Assembly (NCBI RefSeq): GCF_001306175.1
Contig: NZ_LGKN01000009.1
Coordinates: 372,001-436,000 of the forward strand
Direction of reading: 5' to 3'
Source: Ardenticatena maritima
Lineage (GTDB): Bacteria; Chloroflexota; Anaerolineae; Ardenticatenales; Ardenticatenaceae
DNA length: 64,000 nucleotides
Positions 32,162 through 41,954 of the stretch are shown piece after piece. The notes beneath the pieces were generated by a model. That model was not told the DNA's origin. It did no database searches and saw nothing but the letters and a program-made list of their open reading frames with translations. A program made the position numbers and the translations under genes. Position 1 is the first letter of the stretch, and each line of letters opens with the position of its first letter.

Positions 32162-33538
32162 CTACCAGCGCAACCCTTTGGGGTAGTGGTTTTTGAGCAG
32201 ACGCCCCACCTGCTTGCCCCATCCCAACGCATAGCCGTCAACGGCAACGAGCGTCCAACCGGGTTCGCCAGAACGGTTGATGGTTTCGCCACGCAAGTAC
32301 GCCTGCGCTTCTTCGGCGTTCAAGTTGGCAACCCGCCGCACCGCCTGCGGCGCAAGGTGCAACGCCAACGCATGCGCCGGCTCGAAACGCCCTCGACGCG
32401 CCACCCCAACACGCAAACCGGCACGCACCACGGTGACGCCACGCCATTCACGCGCATCAACCGGAAGCAGGTGCCACGCATCGCCAAATGCCGCCCACCC
32501 TGTTTCGGGCAGTTCGGTGCGCATGGTCTCACGCCAGAACGCCTCTACATGGCGGCGCACCTGTCCCGACAAGCGCGAACGCGGTTCACGCCACGCCCAC
32601 GGCGCTTCTTCTCCCCGACGACGCAACAATGCCGCAAAATGCCCCTCACCCGGCGCACGGTGGGGCCACAAACGGACGCACCGCTCTAAAGGAAGCCCCG
32701 CCGCCTCTTCGGGCGCAACCCAATCGGGGCGACCGGGAGCGCTCCCCGGCCACGCCGGCGGTTCAACCAATTCAAAGTCGGGGTGTGTGCGGAGAAAGCG
32801 GGCAATCACGGCTTCGTTTTCTTCGGGGGCAAAAGTGCAGGTGGCGTACACTAACCGCCCCCCCGGACGCACCAGCCGCGCCGCGTCATCCAGCAGGTGC
32901 TGTTGCCGCACGGCGCACCCCAACACGTGCGTTGCGCTCCAATGCGTCGCTGCTTCCGGATTTTTGCGGAACATGCCCTCACCGGAGCAAGGCGCATCAA
33001 CCAGTACGGCATCGAAACGCTCCGCCCACACCTCAGCCAACCGCGCGGGGGCTTCATTCGTCACCAAGGCGTTGGCCACGCCAAAGCGCTCCATGTTTTC
33101 CACCAACGCCGCCACACGCCCACGCACAACTTCATTCGCCACCAACAGCCCCCGCCCTTGCATGCGTGTCGCGATAAACGTCGCCTTGCCGCCCGGCGCC
33201 GCTGCAATATCGAGCACCGCTTCGCCGGGTTGGGGGTTCAGCAGCGCCACCGGCATCATCGCGCTGGGGTCTTGCAGGTAGTAGCAGCCAGCGGCATGGT
33301 AGGCGTGCCGCCCAAGCGCCACGTCGCCGGCACGCACGACGTAGCCCTCCGGCGCCCACGCCAGCGGTTCCGCCTGAATGGCGAGCGCCGACAGAACCTC
33401 CGCCCCACATTTGAGTGTGTTCAGGCGCACGCCCACCATCGGCGGCGCCTGCAACGCCTCGAAAAAGTCCGTCGCTTCCTCTCCCAACAAACGCCGCATG
33501 CGTTCGACAAACTCAGTCGGCAAGATTGGCTCAGCCAT
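32162..33538 (-). CDS. NOL1/NOP2/Sun-family RNA m5C methyltransferase (RsmF-like)
   Basis: SAM-dependent cytosine-5 RNA methyltransferase, 458 residues. SAM site LDIAAAPGGKATFIATRM, the two catalytic cysteines in VDAPCSGEGMFRKNPEA and YATCTFAPEENEAV. A C-terminal PUA-like extension ends with GYALGWGKQVGRLLKNHYPK, as in RsmF/YebU-type 16S rRNA enzymes. ATG 33538 (MAEPILPTEF) has a GGGAGTGAAGG site; longer in-frame starts are rejected. Transcribed divergently from the lysine operon. Confidence 0.92.
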   Translation of the reverse strand: MAEPILPTEFVERMRRLLGEEATDFFEALQAPPMVGVRLNTLKCGAEVLSALAIQAEPLAWAPEGYVVRAGDVALGRHAYHAAGCYYLQDPSAMMPVALLNPQPGEAVLDIAAAPGGKATFIATRMQGRGLLVANEVVRGRVAALVENMERFGVANALVTNEAPARLAEVWAERFDAVLVDAPCSGEGMFRKNPEAATHWSATHVLGCAVRQQHLLDDAARLVRPGGRLVYATCTFAPEENEAVIARFLRTHPDFELVEPPAWPGSAPGRPDWVAPEEAAGLPLERCVRLWPHRAPGEGHFAALLRRRGEEAPWAWREPRSRLSGQVRRHVEAFWRETMRTELPETGWAAFGDAWHLLPVDAREWRGVTVVRAGLRVGVARRGRFEPAHALALHLAPQAVRRVANLNAEEAQAYLRGETINRSGEPGWTLVAVDGYALGWGKQVGRLLKNHYPKGLRW

Positions 33539-33662
33539 ACCTTCACTCCCTGCCCCTTTGAACAGCCGCATACGATACAGCATGCGCCCTCTCGCTCCAA
33601 ACCGACGGCACCAGGTGGGGCATCCCCTCCCACCCATACGGGTAGTTTTGCCCCGCAGGGGC

Positions 33663-33692
33663 TTGACAGTCGCCCATCGCTTTGCCTATACT
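33663..33692 (+). promoter_or_regulatory. promoter of the lysine operon leader
   Basis: Perfect TTGACA (33663-33668) and TATACT (33687-33692), 18 bp apart. Transcription should begin near 33700, giving a leader of about 470 bases before lysW. Confidence 0.85.
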
Positions 33693-33746
33693 GGGGCGCG
33701 GAAATGAGGTTGTACCTTTCATCACAAATCAAGAGGAAAAACCCGT

Positions 33747-33833
33747 ATGCGTTTCGTGTGCGTCGCCAAACAGCAGAAGAAAGCCAAAAAACCGGGCACC
33801 CTCCGGTCTGGCTGCTTCTGCGTGCAAACGTAA
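33747..33833 (+). CDS. Lys-rich leader peptide 1 (28 residues)
   Basis: Short reading frame with its own AAGAGG site 8 bases upstream of the ATG. The core VAKQQKKAKKP holds five lysines (residues 8, 11, 12, 14, 15); the end is LRSGCFCVQT. It lies between a strong promoter and an intrinsic terminator, upstream of the lysine biosynthesis operon. I read it as a regulatory leader whose Lys codons report charged tRNA-Lys. A free small peptide is less likely. Confidence 0.75.
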   Translation: MRFVCVAKQQKKAKKPGTLRSGCFCVQT

Positions 33834-33917
33834 GCGACGCACGACATCCGAAACGCCCACGAAGCAAGCAACGCAACGCGGCGGCCAGACCGAACAGGTG
33901 GCCGCCGTTTTTGTTTG
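33791..33917 (+). promoter_or_regulatory. attenuator 1 of the lysine operon
   Basis: Terminator: CGGCGGCCA (33879-33887) with TGGCCGCCG (33899-33907), then TTTTTGTTTGT. Antiterminator: CGGTCTGGCTGC (33804-33815) pairs over all 12 positions (one G-U) with GCGGCCAGACCG (33881-33892), which contains most of the terminator's left arm. A small protector stem ACCGG/CCGGT (33791-33807) follows the Lys codons directly. Region 2 begins 12 bases after the last Lys codon, where a stalled ribosome would leave it free. Confidence 0.75.
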
Positions 33918-33949
33918 TCTCAACACACAACCAAACCCGGACCAGACCC

Positions 33950-34066
33950 ATGCCTGACATGCTGCTAACCCAACCGACGCACAACATCCGCAAAAAGAAA
34001 TGCAAGAAAGCGAAACCCTCTCCTTTGCGGGGGTCTGGTTGGGGCTGCACGCCGGGCATATCGTAA
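33950..34066 (+). CDS. Lys-rich leader peptide 2 (38 residues)
   Basis: Second short frame in the same leader. [20 protein letters not shown] holds six lysines in eight residues (15-22) and ends GCTPGIS. The layout repeats that of leader 1: Lys cluster, then Pro, Leu-Arg, Ser-Gly, Cys. Its ribosome-binding site is weak (CGGA), and the ATG at 33959 is an alternative start. The start region contains ACCAGACCC, complementary to region 2 of its own attenuator. Confidence 0.7.
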
Positions 34067-34126
34067 GCCACACCACCATGCGCACAAAGCGCCAGACCTC
34101 CGCGGGGGTCTGGCGCTTTTGTTGTT
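34027..34126 (+). promoter_or_regulatory. attenuator 2 of the lysine operon
   Basis: Terminator: perfect 13-bp stem AAAGCGCCAGACC (34086-34098) with GGTCTGGCGCTTT (34107-34119), then TGTTGTTT. GCGGGGGTCTGG occurs twice, at 34027-34038 and in the terminator's right arm (34102-34113). The upstream copy therefore pairs with 34092-34103 (12 bp, one G-U) as an antiterminator. It starts 11 bases after the last Lys codon. ACCAGACCC at 33941-33949 can pair with the upstream copy as protector. Confidence 0.78.
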
Positions 34127-34169
34127 TCACACAGTCAACCAACACATCTCAAAAAGAGGAGGAAACACC

Positions 34170-34352
34170 ATGACCACAACTGTTCGCACAGCCGAATGCC
34201 CTGAATGCGCCGCTGTTGTCCCGCTGGCGGAAGAAGTGTTCCTGCACGAAATCGTCGTATGCCCTGAATGCGGTGTGGAATTGGAAGTGGTCGGACTGGA
34301 GCCCCCCACGCTCGACCTCGCGCCGGAAGTGGAAGAGGACTGGGGCGAATAA
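34170..34352 (+). CDS. lysW: amino-group carrier protein LysW
   Basis: Small acidic zinc-ribbon carrier (60 residues) whose C-terminal Glu gamma-carboxyl is ligated to alpha-aminoadipate, protecting the amino group during lysine synthesis. Zinc ligands are [10 protein letters not shown] and [10 protein letters not shown]. The C-terminus EEDWGE is the conserved EDWGE carrier motif. AAGAGGAGG precedes ATG 34170. First structural gene after the two attenuators. Confidence 0.97.
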
Positions 34353-34402
34353 ATCACCGGGGGCGTTCCAGCCCCCGCCATGACACCATGAGGAGGAACA
34401 GC

Positions 34403-35293
34403 ATGAACCATTTTGCACATCCCCACATCGGCATTCTGGTTGGGCGCATGCGTGTGGAAGAAAAGTTGCTTGTGCAAGAAATTGAGCGCCGCGGCCTGAC
34501 ATACGAACTGATTTATGACAACGAACTCATCCTCGACACCGCGCGCGCCGATGAGTGGCGCCGCTTCGACGTCATCCTGGAACGGTGCGTCAGCCACTCC
34601 CGCGCCCTGACGGCGCTGGCGTTCTTTGAAGCCATTGGCGTGCCCACGGTGAACACGCACGCCGTCGCCGAAATCTGCGGCGACAAGATTCGCACCTCAC
34701 TGGCGCTTGACCGCGCCGGCGTGCCACAGCCCCGCTGGCGCGTCGCCTTCACGCCCGAATCGGCGCTCCGAGCGATTGAAGAAATGGGCTACCCCGTAGT
34801 GCTCAAGCCCGCCACCGGTTCATGGGGGCGCTTGATGGCGCGTGTGAACGACCGCTACACCGCCGAGGCGATTCTGGAACACAAGAGCACCCTGGGCGGC
34901 GTGCAACATTCCATCTTCTACATTCAAGAATACGTCGAAAAGCCCGGTCGCGACATCCGCGCGTTCGTCGTGGGCGATGAAACGATTTGCGCCATCGAAC
35001 GCCGTTCCGACCACTGGATTACCAACACCGCCCGCGGCGGTTCCGCCGGCAACTTCCCCGTGACGCCCGAACTGCACGAGTTGTGTGTGCGCGCCGCCCG
35101 CGCCGTGGGAGGCGGCGTGGTCGCTATTGACGTGTTCGAGAGTGCGCGCGGGTTGTTGGTGAACGAAGTGAACTACACCATGGAATTCCGCAACTCCATC
35201 GCACCCACAGGGGTGAACATTCCAGCCCGCATGATTGACTACGTGGTGCAGGTGGCGCGCAGGCAAACCGAACCGCTGGGGGTGAGCGCATGA
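34403..35293 (+). CDS. lysX: alpha-aminoadipate-LysW ligase LysX
   Basis: ATP-grasp ligase joining alpha-aminoadipate to the LysW C-terminal Glu. The 296-residue product has [20 protein letters not shown] (nucleotide loop), [20 protein letters not shown], and [15 protein letters not shown], whose Asn and neighbouring residues are typical of LysX-type substrate recognition. ATG 34403 follows AGGAGGA. It overlaps lysY as ATGA. Confidence 0.95.
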
Positions 35294-36321
35294 CCATGCG
35301 AGCGGCGATTGTTGGCGCTTCCGGCTACGTGGGCGGCGAACTCCTGCGCCTCTTGCTGCATCATCCTCACGTGCAGGTTGTCGCCGCAACGTCTGAACGC
35401 TTTGCGGGGCGCTACGTGCACAGCGTGCACCCCAACCTGCGCGGTCGTACCGCGCTCCAATTTTCATCTATCGCAGACCTGCCCGAAACCGACGTGCTCT
35501 TTCTCTGCCTGCCGCACGGGCAAGCCGCGCGCCGCATGGACGAATTCGCACGCCTCGCGTCCATCGTGGTGGATTGCTCCGCCGACTTCCGCCTGCGCGA
35601 CCCCGACTGGCACGCCCGCTGGTACGACGCCGAAACCCGCGCCGACGAGTGGCGGGCGCGGTTCGTGTACGGCTTGCCCGAACTCACGCGCGACGCCTTG
35701 CACGGCGCTCGCTACATCAGCGGCGTGGGGTGCAACGCCACGGCGGTCAATCTGGCGCTGTTGCCGCTGGCGCGTGCAGGGTTGATTGAACGTGTGGTGG
35801 CGGACGTCAAAGTCGGGTCCAGCGAAGCAGGCGCACGCGCCACCGACGCTTCCCACCACCCGGAACGCGCCGGCGCTGTGCGTTCGTTCGCCCCGGTTGG
35901 GCATCGCCATCAGGCGGAAATTGTGCAGGCGCTGAACATTCCCGCCGAAGCGCTCTTCTTCTCGGCAACCGCCGTTGAAATGGTGCGCGGGGTGCTCGCC
36001 ACCTGCCACGTCTTTTTGAATGCCGACCTGACCGACCGCGACCTCTGGCGGCTCTACCGCGCCGCCTACGCCAACGAGCCCTTCATCCGCCTGGTGAAGA
36101 GCCGCACTGGTTTGTACCGCTACCCCGAACCCAAAATCGTCGCCGGCACCAACTATTGCGACATCGGTTGGGAACTGGACGACCACGGACGCCGCCTCGT
36201 CGTGATCAGCGCGATTGACAATCTGATGAAGGGCGCCGCGGGGAGCGCCGTGCAATCGCTCAACGTGGCGTGCGGCTGGGACGAGTGCGCCGGGCTGGAT
36301 TTTGTGGGCTTACACCCGTAA
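35290..36321 (+). CDS. lysY: LysW-aminoadipyl-phosphate reductase (LysY/ArgC family)
   Basis: NADPH-dependent reductase forming the LysW-bound semialdehyde. The 343-residue product has the Rossmann opening [20 protein letters not shown], catalytic Cys in [20 protein letters not shown], and [20 protein letters not shown]. The family also covers ArgC; the operon context decides for lysine, although bifunctional lysine/arginine use is known in this pathway. Confidence 0.93.
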
Positions 36322-36340: not shown

Positions 36341-37231
36341 ATGACCATGCAAGAGCAATCTGTATTGGTGGTGAAGGTAGGCGGCGGTGAAGGCAACCGC
36401 ATCGAGCCGGTGCTGGACGACCTCGCCGACCTCTGGCATGCGGGGCGGCGCTGGGTGCTGGTGCATGGCGGTTCGGCACGCACCAACGAAGTCGCGACGG
36501 CGCTGGGGCATCCGCCGCAATTCATCACATCGCCGTCGGGCTTCACCAGCCGCCGAACCGACCGCCAAACCGCGCTCATTTTCACCATGGTGTACGCCGG
36601 CGAGATGAACAAGACCATTGTGGAAGGGCTGCACGCCCGCGGGGTGAACGCCGTCGGGCTGTCGGGGGCGGATGGGCGCGTGCTGGAAGGTGAACGCAAG
36701 AAAGCCATTCGTGCGGTTGTCAATGGGCGGCGGCTCATCATACGCGACGACTACACAGGCACCATCACGCGCGTGAACAGCAGCCTGCTGCACCTCCTGC
36801 TGAACGCCGGCTACGCGCCGGTGCTCTGCCCCCCCGCCATCAGCCAGGAGCACGAACTCATCAACGTGGACGGCGACCGCGCCGCTGCGGCACTCGCCGC
36901 CGCCCTGAGCGCCAAGACGTTGGTGCTCCTCACCGGTGCGCCCGGCTTGCTCCGCTTCCCCGACGACCCCGCCTCGCGCATTGCCACGCTCCCGTTGGCG
37001 GCGCTGGACGACGCCATGAACACCTACGCCCAAGGGCGCATGCGTATCAAACTGCTGGCGGCGCGCGAGGCGCTGGAAGGTGGTGTGCAGCGCGTGATAA
37101 TCGCCGCCAGCAACGCCGCGCATCCCGTGCGGCAGGCCTTGGCAGGCGACGGGACGGTCATCAGCCGATGGGGACGGCAAGAGGAGGAAACGCATGAGCA
37201 TTCAGCCACCGCAAACGAACACCGCGCTTGA
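36341..37231 (+). CDS. lysZ: LysW-aminoadipate kinase (LysZ/ArgB family)
   Basis: Amino-acid-kinase-fold enzyme phosphorylating the LysW-bound side-chain carboxylate. VLVVKVGGGEGNRIEPVLDD, LVHGGSARTNEVA, and VNAVGLSGADGRVLEG are the family blocks; VVNGRRLIIRDDYTGTITRV is typical of LysZ. The 296-residue frame starts at 36341 after GAGAGGGA. The end overlaps lysJ by 38 bases, an unusually deep but coding-plausible overlap. Confidence 0.93.
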   Translation: MTMQEQSVLVVKVGGGEGNRIEPVLDDLADLWHAGRRWVLVHGGSARTNEVATALGHPPQFITSPSGFTSRRTDRQTALIFTMVYAGEMNKTIVEGLHARGVNAVGLSGADGRVLEGERKKAIRAVVNGRRLIIRDDYTGTITRVNSSLLHLLLNAGYAPVLCPPAISQEHELINVDGDRAAAALAAALSAKTLVLLTGAPGLLRFPDDPASRIATLPLAALDDAMNTYAQGRMRIKLLAAREALEGGVQRVIIAASNAAHPVRQALAGDGTVISRWGRQEEETHEHSATANEHRA

Positions 37232-38375
37232 GACCGAAGAGCGCCTTGGAAGCGGCGCTTACGCCCTGCGCAGGTTGACGCTGGTGCGTGGTGAAGGGGC
37301 GCGCGTCTGGGACGCCGCAGGCAACGAATACATTGACTGCATCGCCGGACACGGCGCCGCCGTGCTGGGGCACGCGCACCCCGCCGTCACGGACGCCCTC
37401 ACCCGGCAAGCGGCGCAGTTGATTGCCTGCCCCGGCACGTTCGCCAACGAAACACGCGCCCGCCTGCTGGAACGCCTGCACACCGTGAGCGGTTTCGCCC
37501 GTTTCTTCCTCTGCAACAGCGGGGCGGAAGCGGTTGAAGGGGCGCTCAAAGCCGCACGGCTTTTCACCGGACGCGCCGGCATCGTCGCCATGCACCGTGC
37601 CTTTCACGGGCGCACCATGGGGGCGCTTTCGGCGACCGCCGCGCCCAAGTATCGTGAACCGTTCGAGCCGCTTGTGCCCCATGTGGCGCACATCCCCTTT
37701 GGCGACGTTGCCGCCGCCGACGCCGCCATCACCGACGAAACCGCCGCCGTCATTCTGGAACCGGTGCAAGGCGAAGGGGGCGTGCACCCCGCGACCGCCG
37801 AGTATCTGCACGCGGTGCGCCAACTGTGCGATGAACGGGGCGCACTGCTCATCTTCGACGAGGTGCAAACCGGCTTCGGGCGCACGGGGGCGTGGTTTGC
37901 GTTCGAGCATTTTGGTGTGCGTCCTGACATCATCGCCCTGGCAAAAGGCATCGCCAACGGCGTGCCGCTTGGGGCGGTGGGCTTTGCCGCGCATCTGCCC
38001 CCCTTGCCAACGGGGAGCCACGGTTCGACCTTTGGCGGCAACCCGCTTTCCGCGGCGGCGGCGCTGGCGACACTGGAAACGCTGGAACGCGAACGCCTGC
38101 CGGAGCGCGCCGCGCGGCTGGGCGCGTGGGCGCTGGATGAGTGGCGGCGCTGTCTCAACGGGCATCGCCAGGTGCGCGAAGTGCGCGGGTTGGGGCTCAT
38201 GCTGGGCATCGAACTGCGTTCGCGCGTGACGCCCCTGCTCAAGCGCCTGCAAGCACGGGGGATTTTGGCGTTGCCGGCTGGTCCGACGGTGTTGCGTCTG
38301 CTCCCCCCGCTCACCATCAGCGAAGGCGAGTGGGCAACCGTCATCGAAACCGTGCTGGATGAGGTGCGCCAATGA
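37194..38375 (+). CDS. lysJ: LysW-lysine aminotransferase (LysJ/ArgD family)
   Basis: Class III PLP aminotransferase converting the LysW-bound semialdehyde to LysW-lysine. The 393-residue product has FFLCNSGAEAVEGALKAARL, AVILEPVQGEGGVHPA, LIFDEVQTGFGRTGAWFAFE, and the PLP Lys in IALAKGIANGVPLGAVG. AAGAGGAGG precedes ATG 37194 inside lysZ. No separate LysN is present, so it may also transaminate 2-oxoadipate, or that enzyme lies elsewhere. Confidence 0.93.
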   Translation: MSIQPPQTNTALETEERLGSGAYALRRLTLVRGEGARVWDAAGNEYIDCIAGHGAAVLGHAHPAVTDALTRQAAQLIACPGTFANETRARLLERLHTVSGFARFFLCNSGAEAVEGALKAARLFTGRAGIVAMHRAFHGRTMGALSATAAPKYREPFEPLVPHVAHIPFGDVAAADAAITDETAAVILEPVQGEGGVHPATAEYLHAVRQLCDERGALLIFDEVQTGFGRTGAWFAFEHFGVRPDIIALAKGIANGVPLGAVGFAAHLPPLPTGSHGSTFGGNPLSAAAALATLETLERERLPERAARLGAWALDEWRRCLNGHRQVREVRGLGLMLGIELRSRVTPLLKRLQARGILALPAGPTVLRLLPPLTISEGEWATVIETVLDEVRQ

Positions 38376-39415
38376 CCGGCATTGAATTGCTTGAAGAACT
38401 GGTACGCATTCCCAGCGTGAGCGGTGAAGAGAAAAACGCTGTGCGCTGGCTGGTGGCGGCTATGCAGGCGCTGGGCTTCCAAGCCTTTCGCGACGACGCC
38501 GGCAATGCTGTGGGCGTGCGTGGGCACGGACCCCGCCAACTCGTGCTCCTGGGGCACATTGACACCGTGCCCGGCGGTCCACCGGTGGAGCGCCGCAACG
38601 GGCGGCTCTACGGGCGCGGCACGGTGGACGCCAAAGGACCGCTCGCCGCCTTTGTGACGGCGGGGGCGGCGGTCCAGGTGCCCGATGAGTGGCAACTGGT
38701 TGTGATTGGCGCGGTGGAAGAAGAAAGCGCCACCAGCAAGGGCGCACGCTACGCCGCCACCTGCTACCAGCCCGAAGCCTGCGTGATTGGCGAACCCAGC
38801 GGGTGGGACGCCATCACACTGGGCTACAAGGGGCGGTTGCTGGCGGATATCGAAGTGCGCCGCGCCACAGCCCACACCGCGGGACCAGAGCAGCGCGCGC
38901 CCGAAGTGGCTGTTGACTACTGGAACGCCGTTTGTGCGGCACTCGACACGCTGCCCACAGAGCAAGAAGGGGCGTTCTGGCGCGTCCAACCGTCGCTCCG
39001 ACGCATCAACTCGGCGCAAGAAGGCAACGCCGACGTGGTACGCATGACGCTGGGCTTCCGCCTGCCGCCGACGGTCCGCCCCGCCGACATTGAGCGGCTG
39101 TTGCACGACCTGGCGCCGGAGGGCGTGCATGTGCAGACCTACGGCGCGGAAGAAGCCTACATCGCCGAACGCACAACGCCGCTGGCGCGCGCGTTCCAGC
39201 GCGCGATTGCCGCCGCGGGCGCACGCCCGCGCTTCAAACTGAAAACCGGCACCAGCGACATGAACGTGGTGGGACCCGTCTGGCGCTGTCCTATCCTCGC
39301 CTACGGTCCCGGCGACTCATCACTCGACCATACGCCACACGAGCACATCGACATTGCCGAGTTCGAGCGTGGCGTTGCCGTCCTCACCAACGCTTTGCAA
39401 ACCATCATGGGGTGA
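38372..39415 (+). CDS. lysK: LysW-lysine hydrolase (LysK, M20 family)
   Basis: Metallopeptidase-type enzyme releasing lysine from LysW. The 347-residue M20 protein has LVLLGHIDTVPGGPPVE (metal His/Asp), GRGTVDAKGPLAAFVTAG, VVIGAVEEESATSKGARY (catalytic Glu pair) and PKAC-free CVIGEPSGWDAITLGYKG. KTGTSDMNVVGP carries a late metal-site region. ATGA overlap with lysJ. Confidence 0.93.
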   Translation: MTGIELLEELVRIPSVSGEEKNAVRWLVAAMQALGFQAFRDDAGNAVGVRGHGPRQLVLLGHIDTVPGGPPVERRNGRLYGRGTVDAKGPLAAFVTAGAAVQVPDEWQLVVIGAVEEESATSKGARYAATCYQPEACVIGEPSGWDAITLGYKGRLLADIEVRRATAHTAGPEQRAPEVAVDYWNAVCAALDTLPTEQEGAFWRVQPSLRRINSAQEGNADVVRMTLGFRLPPTVRPADIERLLHDLAPEGVHVQTYGAEEAYIAERTTPLARAFQRAIAAAGARPRFKLKTGTSDMNVVGPVWRCPILAYGPGDSSLDHTPHEHIDIAEFERGVAVLTNALQTIMG

Positions 39416-40621
<1,206 letters not shown>

Positions 40622-40622
40622 A

Positions 40623-41954
40623 ATGGGCGCGACATTCGTGCAAAAGGTGCTTGCCCGCGCCGCCGGGCGCAGCGAAGCCCGTGTGGGCGAGGTGTTGGAC
40701 GTGCGCCCCGACCGCATTCTGAGCCACGACAACACCGCCGCCATCATCGCCAAGTGGCGCACACTGGGGCAATCGCGCCTGCCCCACCCCGAACGGCTCG
40801 CCATCACGCTCGACCACGCCGCGCCGCCCCCCACGGTGCGCCATGCGCAGAACCACGCCACCATTCGCGCCTTTGTCGCCGAACAGGGTATCCGCCACTT
40901 TTTTGAGGTGGGGCGTGGTATCTGCCACCAGGTGCTGAGCGAAGAGGCGCTGGTGCTCCCCGGCGACGTGATTTTGGGGGCTGATTCGCACACGGTGCAT
41001 TTCGGCTGGCTGGGGGCGTTTGGCGCGGGTGTCGGGCGGAGTGAAGTGGCGGCGCTCTGGGCGTTGGGGCGCATCTGGTTGCGTGTTCCACCGACGATCC
41101 GTTTCGTGTTGCGTGGGCGGCTCGCACCGGATGTCTCCGCCAAGGATTTGGCGCTGCACATTATCGGGCGCTTCGGTGCAGACGGCGGGCTTTACCGTGC
41201 GGTGGAATTCGGCGGCGATGGATTGGCAACGCTCTCGCTGGACGACCGCATGACGCTCGCCAACATGATGGCGGAGTTTGGCGTGAAAAACGCCTACCTG
41301 CCGCCCGATGAGCACGTGTTCGACTGGCTGGCGGAACGCCTTGCCCGCCGTGAGGGCATTTCCCGCGAAGCAGCCTACGACCGCATCACCGCCCGCGCTC
41401 TCTACCCCGACCCGACCGCCGAGTACGAGGCGGTGCATGTCATCCGTCTGGACGAGGTGGAACCGGTGGTGGCGTGCCCCCACACAGTGGACAACGTAGT
41501 GCCGCTTTCGGCTGTCGCCGGGCGGCGCATTCACATGGCGTTTCTGGGCACCTGCACCAACGGACGGCTGAGCGACATCGCCACAGCCGCCGAGATTGTG
41601 CGCGGCAAACGCATTGCGCCGGGGGTGCGCTTTCTTGTCATTCCCGCCTCGTCGGAAGTGCTGCAAGAAGCGCTGGCGCGCGGCTACATCGCCGACCTGG
41701 TCGCCGCAGGCGCTACAATTGGCACACCGGGGTGTGGTCCCTGCATGGGGAACCATTTGGGCGTGCTTGCGCCGGGTGAAGTCTGCATCAGCAGCGCGAA
41801 CCGCAACTTTCGCGGGCGCATGGGCACGCCGGAGGCGGAGATTTATCTTGCCAGCCCCGCCGTCGTCGCGGCGAGTGCGCTGGCGGGCGTGATTGCTCGC
41901 CCTTCCCCCGAACCTGTTGCCGTGCAACAAGCGGCACCATCCGCACACGTCTAA
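40623..41954 (+). CDS. homoaconitase large subunit
   Basis: [4Fe-4S] hydro-lyase subunit acting on homocitrate and homoaconitate. The 443-residue product has the cluster cysteines in [17 protein letters not shown] and [40 protein letters not shown] is the substrate segment. It starts 1 base after the homocitrate synthase stop. The family also includes LeuC; context gives lysine. Confidence 0.92.

Follow-up and report, generated by a model that had tools for sequence, protein, structure and literature searches.

Two serial putative attenuators with lysine-codon leaders ahead of the lysW operon of Ardenticatena maritima, and the Chloroflexota attenuator type to which they belong

In Ardenticatena maritima (phylum Chloroflexota), the alpha-aminoadipate lysine operon, lysW-lysX-lysY-lysZ-lysJ-lysK-hcs-hacA by NCBIfam identification, is very probably preceded by two serial ribosome-mediated transcription attenuators, both of which would sense charged tRNA-Lys. 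The window, i.e. the whole 64-kb stretch of DNA that was analysed, holds the leader region upstream of lysW at 33660-34170, and the interval from the promoter to lysW contains two leader ORFs rich in Lys codons, with an intrinsic terminator after each. The initial annotation had likewise proposed two consecutive attenuators, with GGTCTGG/CCAGACC shared by their regions 2 and 3, and our motif positions, leaders and terminators agree with it. The promoter and the structural genes are as follows:

33663..33692, + strand: sigma70-like promoter TTGACA-18-TATACT, 11 of 12 consensus matches, the sole such site within 33500-34500
34170..34352, + strand: lysW, first structural gene (NCBIfam TIGR01206 lysW, 72 bits against a cut-off of 53)
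34403-35293, + strand: lysX (NCBIfam LysX_arch)
35290-36321, + strand: lysY/argC-type gene (NCBIfam argC)
36341-37231, + strand: lysZ (NCBIfam [LysW]-aminoadipate kinase)
37194-38375, + strand: lysJ (NCBIfam argD-family transaminase)
38372-39415, + strand: lysK (NCBIfam [LysW]-lysine hydrolase)
39431-40621, + strand: homocitrate synthase (NCBIfam homocitrate synthase)
40623-41954, + strand: homoaconitase large subunit (NCBIfam hacA_fam)

A similar TTGACA...TATACT was recognized by eye upstream of leader 1 in the sister species, which belongs to the same genus as the genome of the window. Rfam gave no lysine riboswitch or T-box match at the gathering threshold in the window, nor in 33640-34200 with E relaxed to 5, and as none matched, the Rfam classes were rejected as the identity of the leader. 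The first unit consists of the following parts:

33747..33833, + strand: leader peptide 1, MRFVCVAKQQKKAKKPGTLRSGCFCVQT and a stop, an ORF with Lys codons
33758..33842, + strand: region 1:2 hairpin of unit 1, a predicted fold
33804..33815, + strand: region 2 of unit 1 (CGGTCTGGCTGC), 92% complementary to region 3 over 12 nt
33879..33912, + strand: terminator 1, CGGCGGCCA-loop-TGGCCGCCG and then a T-run
33881-33892, + strand: region 3 of unit 1, holding CCAGACC at 33885-33891

The Lys codons of leader 1 (33768-33770, 33777-33782 and 33786-33791) place five Lys within eight residues, a feature that is conserved, and the sister-species ortholog of the peptide is MRFVCVAKQQKKAKKPDTFRSGCF.... In the predicted 1:2 hairpin, GTGCGTCGC (33758-33766) pairs with GCGACGCAC (33834-33842) and GCAGAAG (33773-33779) with CTTCTGC (33815-33821), and a local ACCGGG/CCGGT hairpin lies around 33791-33807; the stem is retained in the sister with altered bases, GTGTGTCG/CGACACAC, as judged by eye and by folding. 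Between genera, the GGTCTGG/CCAGACC of unit 1 becomes GGTCCGG/CCGGACC, a U-A to C-G change made in regions 2 and 3 both. The second unit has the corresponding parts:

33950..34066, + strand: leader peptide 2, 38 protein letters, an ORF with Lys codons
33969..34043, + strand: region 1:2 pairing of unit 2, CCCAACC (33969-33975) with GGTTGGG (34037-34043)
34027..34038, + strand: region 2 of unit 2 (GCGGGGGTCTGG), complementary to region 3
34086..34119, + strand: terminator 2, a 15-pair stem and then a T-rich tail
34092-34103, + strand: region 3 of unit 2

Leader 2, for which the start common to the sister is ATG 33959, has six Lys within eight residues (codons at 33992-34000, 34004-34009 and 34013-34015), again conserved. 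The CCCAACC/GGTTGGG pairing has a predicted probability of 0.91-0.98 in the window and is retained in the sister at 0.99-1.0; a further local pairing joins ACCCTC (34015-34020) to GGGGGT (34029-34034). Regions 2 and 3 of unit 2 covary in the sister to GCGGAGGCCTGG/CCAGGTCTCCGC, the other arm of the terminator being altered to match, and two pairs of terminator 2 are altered there on both sides. No Shine-Dalgarno-like sequence was seen upstream of either leader 2 ATG, and none is clear in this genus. A short GTG-start ORF (33898-33957) overlaps the leader 2 ATG in ATGCCTGA fashion and could permit coupled initiation; in the sister, the frame of this ORF continues without that stop.

The arrangement suggests how the leader may work. 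A ribosome moving unhindered through the Lys codons would leave region 1, just past the codons, together with flanking stems, to hold region 2 (GGTCTGG), upon which the terminator (regions 3 and 4) would form and transcription would stop. Were the ribosome to stall at these codons, it would mask region 1, allowing region 2 to pair with the CCAGACC of region 3 and the RNA polymerase to continue to the next unit. Since the polymerase would have to clear both gates, repression is expected to be multiplicative and the response sharper. Stalling, termination, readthrough and this serial, multiplicative gating are what we infer from the organization of the leader. The parts on which the model draws are present in both units: the leader ORFs, presumably translated, carry a Lys run that is Lys-specific when set against other amino acids; an intrinsic terminator (3:4) lies between each leader ORF and the first gene; 1:2 stems are predicted in both the window and the sister; and the antiterminator 2:3 is mutually exclusive with the terminator, with compensatory changes within the family in both 2:3 and 3:4.

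Our survey covered 151 distinct lysW upstream regions. At least one unit of Lys leader plus terminator was found in 54 of the 151, with two units in 23 of the 151 and one in 31 of the 54; the other 97 of 151 had no unit under our detector, although some contigs end early and some units may be missed. Set to each of 19 other amino acids, the same detector returned two units in only 0-2 regions, and it found no two-unit regions on the reverse strand of the 151. The tandem layout is present in all five family members that have this lysW leader, all of which retain the Lys codons, the paired regions 2:3 and the terminators of both units, and the Lys-rich leaders of both units are conserved across the sister and three further genomes of the family. 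This distribution marks the tandem arrangement as genuine and old. Operation of a single attenuator, probably the operon-proximal unit 2, with the other unit a relic or serving some other purpose, is unlikely in view of this retention of both units across the family; in its favor, most genomes with units carry just one. Alternatively, with no Shine-Dalgarno sequence upstream of leader 2, it may be unit 2 that is the weaker.

Alignment of 23 canonical units with MAFFT and RNAalifold gave no consensus structure, as the variable linkers misaligned the stems, and covariation was therefore tested by comparing each unit's own duplex with swapped ones and by shuffling flanking positions. Cognate 2:3 duplexes averaged -25.2 kcal/mol as compared to -17.8 when swapped; all 77 of 77 beat the swapped mean, and none of 5000 permutations was as good. 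At the positions flanking TCTGG/CCAGA, pairing was observed 21 times against 12.5 expected at position 3 (0 of 2000 shuffles) and 20 times against 13.4 at position 5 (12 of 2000 shuffles). Region 2:3 pairing is thus supported by covariation, and the parts, their conservation and their covariation can all be read in the sequences. In 43 of 46 comparisons within the tandem loci, cognate 2:3 pairing was stronger than pairing across units, which fits the expectation for independent units; in A. maritima itself, however, region 2 of unit 1 pairs with region 3 of unit 2 nearly as strongly, at -34.2 kcal/mol, as with its own region 3, at -36.3.

The units of the window belong to a type that recurs in the phylum. 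In a typical unit the leader ends in ...KKPDxxSG and a stop, the Lys codons being followed by CCRGAC (region 1) and GTCTGG (region 2); the stop codon comes one base after GTCTGG, and the distance from the last Lys codon to TCTGG is most often exactly 12 nt. Regions 1 and 2 form a tight local hairpin, and region 3, CCAGAC, sits at the terminator apex. CYRGAC follows the codons in 20 of 43 units against 0.9 expected, and in 37 of 43 the hairpin just after the codons, which a ribosome would presumably mask, was better than in shuffles. Judging from footprint size, a Lys-stalled ribosome in such a unit would cover region 1 and a ribosome at the stop codon would cover region 2. The window's genus departs from this layout in that its stop codons are 20-28 nt past TCTGG, versus the canonical 4 nt, and its 1:2 stems are longer; a ribosome at the stop codon would therefore no longer cover region 2, and the 1:2 stems would have to substitute.

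The same signature was found, by pattern and by the sequence-only covariance model R1, upstream of argC, argG and carA, where the leaders are Arg-rich, and of proS, where they are Pro-rich. The window's own genome supplies an internal control, a separate argC with the same signature and an Arg-rich leader:

G000:C3:1021726-1021802, - strand: locus L265, attenuator signature ahead of the separate argC, Arg-rich leader MVYQVRSLNNRYPRRPRMVAPDDVSG and a stop

At L265 a CCAGAC-GATGT-GTCTGG hairpin lies within the leader, and the terminator is CCCCCCAGACACAGCGTCTGGGGGG. Elsewhere the signature stands upstream of argininosuccinate synthase (argG) in L264, L270, L271, L276 and L280 and of the carbamoyl-phosphate synthase small subunit (carA) in L279, with Arg-rich leaders read in L264, L270, L271, L276 and L279 and none called in L280. 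Pro-rich leaders, e.g. MNLNPSPAPATRSPARSG and a stop, accompany it in L206-L213 and L254 (one Chloroflexota family), L215, L216 and L275; prolyl-tRNA synthetase is downstream in L210 and L275, and a small gene beginning MNxxVFGGSQP follows directly in several other Pro-leader loci. In L226, L259, L262 and L274 the signature precedes a homocitrate synthase gene, with clearly Lys-rich leaders in L226, L262 and L274. Three loci (L053:1173-1246, L121:1179-1252 and, in reverse, L031:1916-1991) have a tRNA-Lys(CUU) gene immediately upstream of a Lys leader and on its strand, so that the tRNA and its sensor may be co-transcribed.

Within the leader of the window, the motif occurs at these places:

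33805-33811: GGTCTGG, region 2 of unit 1
33885-33891: CCAGACC, region 3 of unit 1
33942-33948, + strand: CCAGACC upstream of leader 2, ending 1 nt before the first leader 2 ATG
34032-34038: GGTCTGG, region 2 of unit 2
34092-34098: CCAGACC, region 3 of unit 2
34107-34113: GGTCTGG, region 4 of unit 2, a copy absent from the initial annotation

All the positions given earlier were exact, including 33942-33948 at the leader 2 start. Counting both strands, 309 nt hold six copies, where 7.2 would be expected for all 64 kb; this is far beyond chance, and five of the six are explained by 2:3 and 3:4 pairing. As the motif is also found in single-unit, arg and pro leaders, the shared letters are a hallmark of the class: attenuators of this Chloroflexota type have GGTCTGG/CCAGACC as their standard antiterminator pair, and it is not a bridge between units.

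The sixth copy, at 33942, is mildly unexpected (about 0.004 for the 79-nt spacer and about 0.024 for the whole leader, by arithmetic from the 64-kb motif rate). The proposal was that it might pair with region 2 of either leader and thereby couple the folding of attenuator 1 to initiation on leader 2. Its 7 nt are perfectly complementary to both regions 2, the stretch 33936-33949 is 86% complementary to unit 2 over 14 nt, and another genome of the family, L034, likewise has CCAGAC next to the start codon of leader 2. However, conservation, the test suggested with the proposal, went against it: in the sister, where concerted changes in regions 2, 3 and 4 have preserved their pairing, the letters at this place are AACAGACG, which do not pair with the sister's region 2. 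CCAGAC at the leader 2 start was seen in 2 of 23 tandem loci (the window and L034), and the spacers of the other tandem loci held none except region-1-like copies in L034 and L115. The element is predicted to pair with region 2 at a probability of 0.02-0.05 in unit 2 and of 0 in unit 1, prediction favoring CCCAACC (33969) at about 0.95 versus 0.05, and shuffles matched its pairing with region 2 in 13 of 200 cases for unit 1 and 8 of 200 for unit 2. The gap to the favored fold, by arithmetic from these probabilities, is only about 2 kcal/mol, so that conservation is the stronger argument. Moreover, the element would stay uncovered when a ribosome stalls at the Lys codons (33992-34015). Given the missing conservation, the pairing probabilities and the shuffles, we rejected 33942 as a link; such coupling is most improbable, and the extra CCAGACC is most likely incidental and not a working part.

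The initial annotation had also read the shared motif as the mark of a local tandem duplication. That the two units arose from a recent event of this kind, which supplied the motif, is quite improbable, and we rejected it on the class-wide distribution of the motif in single-unit, arg and pro leaders. Several short direct repeats between the units would speak for it, including one of 31 nt at 81% (33823-33853 and 33963-33993), whose spacing is 140 versus 207-233 for the other unit-to-unit repeats; this repeat was not seen in the sister by eye. Both units are family-wide and retain unit-specific features, such as the ...GSGxxCxP of unit 2 in two genera, and since the units match one-to-one between genera, any duplication must be old. 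In many Anaerolineae the distal unit carries a different pair, TTCGGGC/GCCCGAA, which argues that tandem units are often not copies. This second unit type, with TTCGGGC-like letters after the stop codon, GCCCGAA-like letters in the terminator loop and KKAKK-like leader runs, forms the distal units of L060, L062, L073 and L090 and the single unit of L177, and often lies upstream of a TCTGG-type unit. We think it more probable than not that a stereotyped cassette (codon run, CCRGAC, GTCTGG, stop codon and a terminator with CCAGAC at its apex) was copied among Lys, Arg and Pro operons of Chloroflexota with the sensed codon swapped, and was doubled serially in many Lys operons to give a two-gate switch for one signal.

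If true, this would mean that a single conserved switch design serves several amino acids in Chloroflexota, the codons alone being changed, and it would give a simple sequence-based annotation rule for their amino-acid operons; serial same-signal attenuators would also lend themselves naturally to testing whether metabolic control becomes sharper when terminators are stacked. The best-documented cases of ribosome-mediated attenuation come from Proteobacteria and Actinobacteria. In the literature, of which our coverage was incomplete, we found no report of leader attenuation for lysine, arginine or proline in Chloroflexota, and none of amino-acid operons with tandem leader peptides for the same signal; both the stereotyped type and its same-signal doubling appear to be undescribed so far.

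Like the trp, his and leu attenuators of E. coli, the present units have a leader ORF rich in the codon of the pathway, mutually exclusive 1:2, 2:3 and 3:4 pairings and an intrinsic terminator before the first structural gene; unlike them, the Chloroflexota switch is stereotyped in sequence (CCRGAC, GTCTGG, stop codon, CCAGAC at the apex) across Lys, Arg and Pro leaders, and in Ardenticatena two units for the same signal stand in series. Lysine riboswitches and T-boxes also control amino-acid genes by premature termination, whereas sensing here would proceed through a translated ORF, and the window has no Rfam match to either class. Tandem attenuators as such are known from Salmonella mgtCBR (PMC3641672). 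In both cases one leader holds two ORFs, each tied to attenuation-like control of transcription. The two ORFs of mgtCBR sense different signals, ATP and proline, whereas the two units here share Lys codons as their presumed signal and are each equipped with a separate terminator. A parallel in pathway, compared here by description, is the alpha-aminoadipate lysine cluster of Thermus thermophilus, in which a Lys-codon leader peptide reportedly exerts attenuation through one attenuator, whereas Ardenticatena has two.
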